DNA from: Acidobacteriota bacterium
GTDB lineage: Bacteria > Acidobacteriota > Blastocatellia > Pyrinomonadales > Pyrinomonadaceae
NCBI GenBank assembly: GCA_019247455.1
Contig: JAFAOW010000012.1
Coordinates: forward strand, 1-32,649
DNA length: 32,649 nt
Reading direction: 5' to 3'
The position numbers and the translations under genes are program-made. This document shows, piece by piece, positions 16,032-18,212 of this stretch (position 1 is the first letter of the stretch; each line of letters starts with the position of its first letter). The notes below the pieces were generated by a model. The model searched no databases. It saw only the letters and a program-made list of their open reading frames with translations, and was not told the DNA's origin.

Positions 16032-16498
16032 TGAAGCTCAGCCTTTATCTCGAGACATCAGTGGTCGGCGCGTATCTGGACAACGGCGAGCCGTTTCGGC
16101 GCGACCTAACTATCCGCTGGTGGGAACATGAACTCCACGAGTATCAGCCGTTCACGTCGGTGCTTGTACGCAGGGAACTCGAACGTGTGCAGGAACCCTA
16201 CCGCACGGGAAGCCTGAAGCTGATCGAGCCGTTGATCCAACTTGATCTATCTGAGGAAGTCGCGATACTTGCCGAGGGGTATATCGAGCGCGGCATCTTC
16301 CATAGAAAATACATCGCCGATGCGATCCATGTTGCGATAGCCGCGGTGCACAAGATCGATTATCTGGTTACCTGGAATTTCGGAAATATCGCGAACGTGC
16401 GCAAGCAGGCAAGGATACGGCTATTCAATACTGCGGCCGGATTTTTTTCTCCGGCAATAGTCACACCGGAGTTTCTTGTTCACACAGGGCCCGTCTAG
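16031..16498 (+). CDS. PIN-domain protein (VapC-like putative ribonuclease)
   Basis: The 155-residue protein starts with the PIN signature LYLETSVVGAYLD, has a central conserved glutamate region (VLVRRELERV), then ADAIHVAIAAV and VTWNFGNIANV. These are the acidic and Asn/Asp positions of the PIN nuclease fold used by VapC toxins, with Glu instead of Asp in the first motif as in many of this subgroup. VapC proteins cut tRNA or rRNA and are held in check by an antitoxin encoded next to them. No antitoxin-like ORF is present here. The GTG start overlaps the TAG stop of the protease gene (TAGTG), so translation is coupled. Its stop shares CTAG with the stop of the convergent HD-GYP gene. Confidence 0.8.
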   Translation: MKLSLYLETSVVGAYLDNGEPFRRDLTIRWWEHELHEYQPFTSVLVRRELERVQEPYRTGSLKLIEPLIQLDLSEEVAILAEGYIERGIFHRKYIADAIHVAIAAVHKIDYLVTWNFGNIANVRKQARIRLFNTAAGFFSPAIVTPEFLVHTGPV

Positions 16499-17811
16499 TG
16501 GATCTGTAGAATATCGCCTGCTGCAGCGACATAGGTCATCGGCGACGTGGGGGCCACGTCATTCAAGGTCGTTCGGATCTTCTCGACAATGCCCTCGGCT
16601 TCCATATAATCGCGCCCGAGCAGGCGGCGAAACCGCTTATCGGTTGTCTCGCCCTTCAATTCCTTTAACATTCCGCCAAGAAAGGCGGTTACCAATTCAG
16701 GGGAAAATTGCCTACCGATATTGCCCTTGAGATCGTCAACCACATCTCGAGCCGCGCGGCGAGCCTTGTACGGCCGGTCGGTCGTCATAGCGTCAAACGA
16801 ATCCGCGAGCGTCACTATCTTGGCAATGTAGGGAATCTCGCGACCCTTTAGTCCGTCCGGATACCCGCGTCCGTCCAGCCGTTCATGATGATACTTTGCC
16901 GCGAGCGGCACGTCCGTATACGGGTGATGGATGGGCTGAAGGATTTCAAAACCCACCCCCGGGTGCTTGTTCAATTCGGCGGATTCTTTCGCATTGATCC
17001 GGTAAGGTGCGTTTATGATCTTACGCTCGACAGTAAGCTTGCCGACATCGTGCAGATACCCAGCGACTGCGGCGCCCTCGACCTCTTCTTTACCCCATCC
17101 GAGCTCCGACGCGATGATCTCGCTGAACTTGCCTACGCGGACGGAATGGCCTTCAGTGTATTTATCCTTGCAATCGATGGCCGCGGCGAACGCCTTTACC
17201 GTATCGTGGTATGTCGAGCGCATCTCGTCGAAAAGCTGCCGGTTCTCCTCGGCATGTCGCTCGATCTCCGCCATTAGATTTCGTTGTGCGATCGCCACGC
17301 CGATGTGCTGTCCCATCGCGCAGACGATCTCCTTTTCGTACGAGGTGTAAGCTTCGCCGGTCGCTTTCTCGCCCAGAAATAGTGCTCCAACTATCTCCTC
17401 ACGGACCACTAAGGGGACGAATAACTGGAGCCCGCGGTCGGCAAAACTCACATCGTAGATCTGAAAGAAGGGCAGGACCTGAGCTTCCGCTATCTCAATA
17501 GGGTGCAGGCCGTTCGTCAGGAACTGCCTCTCATCCTCGGTTGTAAGGGTTAGACTTAGGGGGAAGTCGTCTCCAAGTCCACGTACCGCCACCAAGTTCA
17601 ACTCGTGCGCATATCTCGAATATCGGGCGGCCGCCCCACGCATAATGCCGATCGCCCCGGAAAGCAGATGAAGGGAGGTACGGATCGTTTCCTGAAAGCT
17701 ATTCTTATTCGTGATCTCATGGCCAAGTTCGGCGAGAGCGCCGAACGCGTGGATGAGTTTGTGGTCATCATGATCGTGATTCGTGAATCGTGAATCGTGA
17801 ATCGTAGTCAT
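16495..17811 (-). CDS. GAF and HD-GYP domain c-di-GMP phosphodiesterase
   Basis: The 438-residue protein has a GAF-like sensory domain (about residues 35-175) and an HD-GYP domain (about 200-365) that hydrolyses cyclic di-GMP. The metal and catalytic residues are in place: GHSVRV at 221, HD at 254-255 (LHDVGKLT), HPGVG from 283, HHERLDGRGYP with GYP at 316-318. No membrane segment is seen, so it is cytoplasmic. The first ~14 residues, with an odd His/Asp/Thr composition, are encoded by a heptamer repeat array (17771-17804). No other start codon exists until Met57 inside the GAF domain, so the ATG at 17811 is the best start. That ATG overlaps the TAA of the four-helix-bundle gene (TAATG). The native start was probably displaced. 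Confidence 0.9.
   Translation of the reverse strand: MTTIHDSRFTNHDHDDHKLIHAFGALAELGHEITNKNSFQETIRTSLHLLSGAIGIMRGAAARYSRYAHELNLVAVRGLGDDFPLSLTLTTEDERQFLTNGLHPIEIAEAQVLPFFQIYDVSFADRGLQLFVPLVVREEIVGALFLGEKATGEAYTSYEKEIVCAMGQHIGVAIAQRNLMAEIERHAEENRQLFDEMRSTYHDTVKAFAAAIDCKDKYTEGHSVRVGKFSEIIASELGWGKEEVEGAAVAGYLHDVGKLTVERKIINAPYRINAKESAELNKHPGVGFEILQPIHHPYTDVPLAAKYHHERLDGRGYPDGLKGREIPYIAKIVTLADSFDAMTTDRPYKARRAARDVVDDLKGNIGRQFSPELVTAFLGGMLKELKGETTDKRFRRLLGRDYMEAEGIVEKIRTTLNDVAPTSPMTYVAAAGDILQIH
17771..17804. repeat. Left heptamer array (TGAWTCG units)
   Basis: On the plus strand four perfect-phase heptamers run from 17777 to 17804: TGATTCG then three TGAATCG. A shortened TGATCG (17771-17776) precedes them. 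The array lies inside the first codons of the HD-GYP gene. Its outer 17 bases (17775-17791) are the exact inverse of 18196-18212. Confidence 0.9.
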
Positions 17812-18173
17812 TAGCCTAACTTTCCTTTTAAGTGTCTTGATAATCCAGTGATCATTCGCCCGATATTGTCCAAGGCGCTCGAAGAAGTCATGAAATCCGA
17901 ATCTGATATGTAGCCCAGCCGGTTGGCGATCACCAATTCTGTTTCTACATCGCTGGTTGACCCCTGAGCAATGGACAAGAACCGTAAGAAGTCCTTATCC
18001 GTTTCGCCTGCAGCACCCTCAGCAATATTCGCGGGTATGGATACCGACGCACGCGTTATTTGCGAAGTAAGACCAAATTTTTCGTCTTTCGGAAAGAACT
18101 CGGTCATCCGATAGACTTCTACAACGAAGTCAACTGACTTTGACCAAACATCAAGTTTTAGGTGGGAGCGCAT
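17811..18173 (-). CDS. Four-helix-bundle protein of the S23/bIVR (TIGR02436) family
   Basis: The 120-residue protein matches the S23 family known from 23S rRNA intervening sequences and related to the accessory protein Avd of diversity-generating retroelements. Family landmarks are LDVWSKSVDFVVEVYRMTEF, then FPKDEKFGLTSQITRASVSI, PANIAEGAAGETDKDFLRFL and IAQGSTSDVETELVIANRLGY. Predicted structure is four amphipathic helices; Avd is a pentamer that binds nucleic acid, but no activity is known for most free-standing members. No ribosome site precedes the ATG; the 22 bases before it are A/T-rich remnants of the repeat array. There is no reverse transcriptase and no 23S rRNA here, so it is neither a retroelement nor an rRNA intervening sequence. 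It is bracketed by inverted repeat arrays. Confidence 0.9.
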   Translation of the reverse strand: MRSHLKLDVWSKSVDFVVEVYRMTEFFPKDEKFGLTSQITRASVSIPANIAEGAAGETDKDFLRFLSIAQGSTSDVETELVIANRLGYISDSDFMTSSSALDNIGRMITGLSRHLKGKLG

Positions 18174-18182
18174 ATTAGTTTT

Positions 18183-18212
18183 CTATTCACGAATTACGAT
18201 TCACGAATCACG
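18183..18212. repeat. Right heptamer array, inverted relative to the left one
   Basis: Read on the minus strand the units are TGATTCG (18210-18204), TGAATCG (18203-18197), TAATTCG (18196-18190) and TGAATAG (18189-18183), after CG at 18212-18211. The two outer units match the left array exactly; the inner two have decayed. The array sits between the STAS stop codon and the start of the four-helix-bundle gene. Confidence 0.9.

Follow-up and report, generated by a model that had tools for sequence, protein, structure and literature searches.

What is a free-standing gene for an S23 protein, a four-helix-bundle family known from intervening sequences (IVS) of 23S rRNA, doing between two arrays of short repeats and two ordinary protein genes? 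The question is raised by a 32,649-nucleotide stretch of DNA (hereafter the window), contig JAFAOW010000012.1 of an Acidobacteriota bacterium of the family Pyrinomonadaceae (assembly GCA_019247455.1), in which a sequence-only reading had found an S23 gene enclosed by TGAWTCG-like heptamers in opposite orientation, and had proposed either a minimal mobile unit or a repeat-binding protein with its own sites. We followed this up in the source genome (G000; 3.28 Mb in 310 contigs, 96.7% complete, the window contig being C121), in its relatives and in other phyla. The feature is probably one copy of a small mobile cassette, consisting of a 5' array, an S23 gene and an inverted 3' array, which sits between codirectional operon genes and would be spread and maintained by the mechanism proposed below.

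The window protein matched PF05635 with 128.6 bits (E = 1.4e-37; curated cut-off 33.8) and TIGR02436 with 122.3 bits (cut-off 24), which places it in both families, and it matched the structure PDB 2gsc (E = 1.7e-28); its match to the bAvd family PF22296 (7.9e-6) fell under that family's cut-off. The inverted arrays lie exactly where the sequence-only reading had put them, and reading the sequence again confirmed the perfect 17-bp inverted repeat and the foldable dyads, present as GATTCGTGAATC at 17778-17789 and 18198-18209. The two arms are complementary at 82% over 33 nt and at 93% over 28 nt. Their arm score, obtained by aligning the upstream flank to the reverse complement of the downstream flank, was 48, compared with a 99th percentile of 38 in mismatched flank pairs. 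Nine near matches to GATTCGTGAWTCG occur in the window, six of them inside the arrays; 3.0 were expected and the maximum in 100 shuffles was eight.

TIGR02436 profile matches were found at 13 places in the source genome, which we count as about 12 elements because we treat two of the matches as parts of a single gene interrupted by contig ends (the split gene sits between apparent purS and purQ, identities read from translations). Arms scoring at least 28 were present at 10 of the 11 places with both flanks, and the window cassette is thus one case of a rule; L010 scored 15, with an array seen downstream only. Units mostly differ among these cassettes (GAATAGA, GTGAATC, GTCCAAA, TTGAGTTCG, GGTCATT, CTAAAAC and others), and two of them, L006 and L007, resemble each other (GTGAGAA). 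The TGAWTCG-like heptamer therefore describes the window arrays and fails as a fixed motif, and a single fixed heptamer acting as binding site was ruled out on the same ground.

S23 was present in 54 of the 60 genomes searched, including all 37 of the genus (1-17 copies each), and in 0 of 14 control genomes. Our class set comprised 142 S23 loci, the better-scoring among the matches listed, of which 138, in 43 genomes, had both flanks. Their median inverted-flank score was 42, compared with 16 in mismatched pairs (5000 draws), 16 in direct orientation and 16 for 281 other open reading frames (ORFs). The 95th percentile of the control was exceeded by 129 of the 138 loci, and its 99th percentile by 1 of the 281 other ORFs; counted once per site, 78 of 84 testable clusters lay above the 95th percentile (88 clusters, 159 elements). 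A diverse set, the best 80 of at least 580 relatives in a named genome collection, included 75 loci with both flanks (the sole archaeal locus, L208, was left out of the flank test since its flank was too short), with a median inverted score of 34 against 16 in mismatched pairs and 65 loci above the 95th percentile. By record titles, this set covers Bacteroidota, Proteobacteria, Clostridia, Chloroflexi, Planctomycetes, Akkermansia and candidate phyla. As judged from these flanks, the arm-S23-arm architecture is common to the source genome, its class and other phyla. A separate arrangement was seen at L116, where two S23 matches lie in opposite orientation about 1 kb apart.

If the cassette is mobile, relatives should include empty sites, and the sequence-only reading had proposed to look for one where the window cassette lies, between a STAS-domain gene and an HD-domain gene. 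Of 60 genomes searched for this STAS/HD junction 41 matched, and 29 relatives' loci were compared, 27 of them with both genes (the matching genomes G009, G019, G028 and G035 were left out of the comparison). S23 was absent in 26 of the 27. The spacing between the aligned protein ends was 29-74 bp in 21 of the 27 and 103-255 bp without an S23 match in five, some of which have arrays; one relative has an S23 at this junction (L038), with similar units, a broken frame and 68% identity over 78 residues.

S23 presence also differs between relatives at seven further junctions. Beside a tRNA-Ser gene, S23 with arms of the GGATAAA type is present in G003, G014 and G021; G017 has a bare TTGTGAA hairpin there (flanks 94% identical), and G002 and G022 are without S23. 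At an apparent ybaB-recR junction G003 carries S23 with GCGGAAC arms, and G017 and G014 carry bare GTGAATG hairpins. At the L173 site G017 is filled and G003 has an internal deletion, G022 and G021 have 52 and 85 bp respectively, and G014 and G002 have other sequence; the L170, L265 and L274 sites are without S23 in G014. At the L092 site G056 has S23, G044 and G052 have bare hairpins built from another unit, and about 50 bp are present in G048 and G037, which belong to the same family. The L092 element has a second copy, L096, at another site of G056: the two are 94.9% identical over 447 bp without gaps (dN 0.004, dS 0.18 for nonsynonymous and synonymous divergence), and their similarity begins and ends inside the arrays. 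This was the one pair of near-identical copies at unrelated sites. Because the two copies differ in site and their similarity is bounded by the arrays, we take arm-S23-arm to be a mobile cassette, and this duplicate pair together with S23 presence and absence at eight junctions demonstrates, at the level of genome comparison, mobility as a unit; the proposal of a minimal mobile unit is supported. Spacers of the relatives have diverged too far for an alignment over the junction that could reveal target-site duplications.

Two other arrangements were noted. At L304 a bare TTGTGAA hairpin is apparently nested in a GGATAAA array, and relatives have S23 at the same junction. At L260 and L262, from two relatives, the flanks are the same but the S23 gene points in opposite directions, and its arms are not recognisable.

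The arms themselves proved to be variable in a regular way. Among 206 elements with an arm score of at least 24, the period was 7 or 14 in 158, 8 in 20, 9 or 10 in 24 and another value in 4. Unit and period follow the S23 phylogeny, even across different sites: elements of a period class other than 7 shared this class with the nearest other-site S23 in 23 of 44 cases, compared with 4.7 in shuffles (maximum 17, n = 2000), unit similarity was 0.51 at S23 tree distances below 0.5 (30 pairs) and 0.16-0.19 beyond 1.5, and the Mantel rho of unit similarity against tree distance was -0.148 (minimum -0.064 in 300 permutations). Contrary to expectation, the nearest S23 relative was of like period class for only 2 of 9 such elements in the diverse set. 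The closest S23 relatives of the window gene among the elements compared, L047 and L053, have GTAAATC/GTGAATC units and lie on contigs other than those with the STAS/HD junction of their genomes. A repeat-binding protein with its own fixed sites is thus not supported in that form, since the unit varies between elements, though in step with S23 phylogeny. Strictly private units were ruled out as well, because GTGAATC and AGAAGTC arrays recur across genera.

Twenty-five groups of S23 loci have the same flanks in different genomes, and within these groups the unit drifts (at one junction AGAAGCC, AGAAATC, AAAAATC and AGAATTC), yet the arms of each element mostly stay alike. For 164 ordered pairs of loci we compared the match between an element's own two arms with that between one of them and the opposite arm of the other locus; the own pairing was the better in 112, equal in 11 and the poorer in 41. 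Arms match far better within than between elements, units being common to closely related S23 only, and an insertion sequence or miniature inverted-repeat transposable element with fixed terminal inverted repeats was rejected on this account. As far as aligned arms can tell, units vary from element to element, and the two arms of an element change in concert. Compensation one position at a time could scarcely rewrite every unit of two arrays about 400 bases apart, and we therefore infer repeat slippage with copying between the arms. In the L049 group, S23s with just 25-26% identity and another unit occupy a single junction, apparently from separate insertions. Several arrays extend into the upstream stop codon. 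We make no claim that the unit is seeded by the target at insertion, since relatives' spacers are too diverged and same-flank loci drift gradually.

Cassettes tend to lie along the direction of their neighbours. With neighbour strands taken roughly from the longest ORFs, both neighbours were codirectional with S23 at 109 of 137 class loci, both opposed at 3 and mixed at 25; the corresponding counts at 57 diverse loci were 40, 5 and 12, and counting one per site gave 58 with and 1 against. The median position of the upstream stop codon is 2 bp within the arm in the class set and 0.5 bp outside it in the diverse set. The ratio dN/dS was 0 to 0.15 in the eleven same-flank pairs that passed limits on synonymous divergence, which shows, for the pairs in which it is measurable from sequence, strong purifying selection on S23; S23 may be the element's own factor, and the sequence-only reading's term non-autonomous may therefore not apply.

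Features of the window locus are given in Table 1. The STAS gene end (18213) directly adjoins the 5' array, bearing out the description of a unit that starts directly after a stop codon. The 3' array lies within the predicted N-terminus, or first codons, of the downstream HD-domain ORF (HD-GYP is the label of the sequence-only reading only), whose ATG overlaps the S23 stop codon (TAATG). In many relatives without the cassette an ATG follows the STAS stop, ahead of the conserved portion of the HD protein, and the window is without that ATG (17760-17811).

Table 1. Coordinates of the cassette and its host genes in the window.
Feature	Position	Strand	Basis
S23 / 23S_rRNA_IVP four-helix-bundle gene, 120 aa	17811..18173	-	PF05635, TIGR02436 and PDB 2gsc matches
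5' arm (relative to S23): GTGAATC-like heptamer array, abuts STAS stop codon	18185..18221	.	Tandem Repeats Finder (TRF) periods 14 and 7; arm score 48
3' arm: heptamer array, opposite orientation, 4.7 copies	17773..17805	.	TRF period 7; inverted repeats
17-bp perfect inverted repeat, copy 1	17775..17791	.	Read from sequence
17-bp perfect inverted repeat, copy 2	18196..18212	.	Read from sequence
Upstream host gene, STAS-domain protein, 105 aa	18213..18530	-	PF01740, 1.3e-6
Downstream host gene, HD-domain protein (HD_5)	16495..17811	-	PF13487, 1.1e-28; translation; relatives without cassette

The window RNA folds with its arms paired (z = -4.15), and a terminal inverted repeat able to form a stem round the S23 ORF is present in the window and the class loci. 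We found no transposase or reverse transcriptase within the cassette, and we propose the following mechanism. Read-through from the host operon would transcribe the cassette; the arms would pair in the RNA, where RNase III could cut the cassette out of the polycistronic message, by analogy with rRNA IVS; the Avd-like S23 protein would bind the paired or single-stranded arms and help the cassette to spread; and repeat slippage with arm-to-arm copying, through hairpin or template-switch events, would keep the arms alike.

Similar arrays also occur with no S23 gene. The 15-base pattern GTGAATCGTGAATCG had 32 occurrences in 10 of the 60 genomes, with 0 for its reversed control, and in the source genome it occurs in the window only. 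Among 30 of these loci examined, S23 was found only at two overlapping window loci; the remaining 28 represent 21 distinct places in nine other genomes, with an S23 match at 0 of the 21. An inverted partner scoring at least 30, a cut-off chosen after the scores were known, lies within about 330 bp at 12 of these 21 places. AGAAGTC-like arrays were present at dozens of places in several genera among the matches listed. Since arrays with GTGAATC- and AGAAGTC-like units exist without S23, the hairpin class is wider than S23. The sequence-only reading had held that arrays unassociated with S23 would speak against its proposal, and relatives do contain them. Several GTGAATG hairpin arrays were also seen either side of an apparent recR at L276 7349-8316 (G017), where no S23 was reported. 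Arrays of another kind, CACAGAG-type with 9-10-nt units, lie at L278 3129-3155 and L279 9152-9178, and no clear candidate for a gene inside them was apparent among the ORFs read, which were not scanned for families.

Several results weigh against a mobile cassette working as proposed. S23-less arrays are common in relatives, which suggests that S23 need not drive arrays. Flanks also match in direct orientation above the 95th percentile at 10 of 138 class and 15 of 75 diverse loci, and the inverted score does not exceed that percentile at 9 of 138 and 10 of 75. The S23 of L038 at the STAS/HD junction leaves room for an old insertion followed by many losses. Selection for RNA pairing on the sense strand is not shown by the wobble changes in the arms, which are inconsistent between the two sets: in the class, sense-type changes weakly outnumber antisense-type, by 155 to 118 with each group counted once (p 0.03; p 0.06 over all loci), and in the diverse set the direction is reversed, 79 to 132 (p 0.0003).

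The most serious alternative is that the hairpin arrays are primary: replication slippage and template switching would create or move them at gene junctions, and S23 genes would be passengers in the loops of some. It would account for the common S23-less hairpins with the same units and for three junctions at which one relative has S23 with one unit and another relative a bare hairpin with a different unit. It would not lead one to expect that most S23 genes examined lie within such arms, that unit and period track the S23 phylogeny across different sites, that the L092/L096 duplicate carries gene and arms together, or that S23 is under strong purifying selection, and we regard it as unlikely, though as a rival to be taken seriously. 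A second possibility, that host RAYT (Y1_Tnp) transposases mobilise the arrays as single-stranded hairpins, is suggested by the correlation of S23 and Y1_Tnp copy numbers (rho 0.73 across 60 genomes, uncorrected for kinship; 0.60 within the genus). Within the genus, copy numbers also track genome size; the genomes are not independent of one another, and two genomes have S23 without a Y1_Tnp match. With 2-21 matches per genome, Y1_Tnp genes are common in the genus, and 20 loci were examined (L329-L348). At most of these the best inverted flank match was a palindrome like the repetitive extragenic palindromic (REP) sequences, recurring between loci; only 8 of the 20 exceeded the 95th percentile of their own mismatched control, which palindromes common to the loci raise. 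No heptamer array appeared among the printed flank matches of these loci, at which no dedicated array search was made. RAYT mobilisation is on this evidence improbable, and a RAYT-mobilised REP element was rejected as the identity of the cassette, since units mostly differ between cassettes and the Y1_Tnp loci examined have other palindromes.

A reverse transcriptase might instead move the cassette or write its repeats, after the manner of Avd in diversity-generating retroelements or by adding G-rich repeats, in a telomerase-like way, to the two 3' ends of a break. The bAvd-like similarity of S23 would fit, as would the excess of G over C on the outside-to-inside arm strand in 188 of 206 elements, the polarity inferred for addition to both 3' ends. 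The source genome has 0 RVT_1 matches at its 96.7% completeness, 20 of the 33 genomes with five or more S23 have no RVT_1, and the copy numbers are uncorrelated (rho 0.06), so that this explanation is already disfavoured and very improbable. Least probable of all, and already disfavoured by the L092/L096 duplicate at different sites of one genome, is an old, non-mobile operon gene with regulatory hairpins, inherited vertically and often lost: the 25 groups with both flanks in common and a related S23 at the same STAS/HD junction in G001 would suit it, whereas the absence of S23 from that junction in 26 of 27 relatives, the location of the window gene's closest relatives compared, with like units, on other contigs, and the highly divergent S23s with other units at the shared junction of one group do not.

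Bacterial heptamer arrays are so far without an agreed explanation, and the link to S23, strong in 43 related genomes and many other phyla, opens both the arrays and the protein to testing. One can ask what nucleic acid S23 binds, if operon messages are cleaved by RNase III in the arms, and by what means an element lacking a known enzyme moves and keeps separated, drifting arrays alike. Among the open-access literature matches listed, with subscription journals and preprints outside their coverage, none links free-standing S23 genes to inverted heptamer arrays.

Several known systems share parts of this design. In Beggiatoaceae, the portions of PMC4679880 consulted describe intergenic tandem heptamers, the TAACTGA direct repeats; unlike S23 arms these have one fixed unit and are nearly all direct, not inverted, and the main text of that paper does not contain the term S23. 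The P6b stem of the Nostoc trnL intron carries one of two 7-nt repeat motifs, repeatedly replaced by the other, according to sections of PMC4476775, and differs from the cassette in that its repeats sit inside a group I intron. The Geobacter metallireducens sites described in part of PMC2700814 are paired tandem hepta- and octanucleotide repeats read there as possible IHF/HU sites, which like the arms have 7-8-nt units in pairs on opposite strands at variable distance; the term S23 is absent from that paper's main text. REP/REPIN sequences with RAYT are likewise intergenic inverted repeats, and Y1_Tnp genes are frequent in S23-bearing genomes, but the palindromes flanking the Y1_Tnp genes examined recur between loci, whereas S23 arms are tandem arrays whose unit differs per element. 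Avd of diversity-generating retroelements is distantly similar to S23, its homology to PF05635 being noted in passages of PMC10053308; the reverse transcriptase that defines such a retroelement has no RVT_1 counterpart in G000.

The nearest counterpart is the 23S rRNA IVS of Coxiella, Leptospira and others, in which an S23 ORF also lies in a terminal inverted repeat, with a total of about 430 nt. In Coxiella, as described in parts of PMC4990558, the ORF lies inside a terminal inverted repeat whose stem is 28 bp long, and upstream of it stand two or three heptameric repeats, depending on the strain, and a degenerate one; RNase III cuts both at the first of these repeats and within the stem. The same parts state that IVS S23 proteins have no known function and that the Coxiella S23 is undergoing reductive evolution. 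The sequence-only reading was right that no rRNA is involved at the window, where the flanks are protein genes and not a 23S rRNA gene (five 23S rRNA motifs, searched without a positive control, were found at 0 of 242 loci), but these upstream heptamers make its contrast with rRNA IVS less sharp. Unlike an rRNA IVS, the cassette lies between codirectional protein genes, in many copies per genome with mostly different units, and unlike the Coxiella gene its S23 is under selection. By its architecture the cassette may work like an rRNA IVS, though it lacks the 23S rRNA location that defines one. We tentatively suggest, as a possibility that goes well beyond the cassette itself, that S23 is the dedicated factor of a class of mobile elements free of transposase and reverse transcriptase, with concertedly rewritten array ends; gene-less heptamer hairpins, such as the Geobacter paired sites, the Nostoc P6b repeats and the S23-less intergenic hairpins of relatives, would then be its non-autonomous kin, and the rRNA IVS a copy that landed in rRNA.
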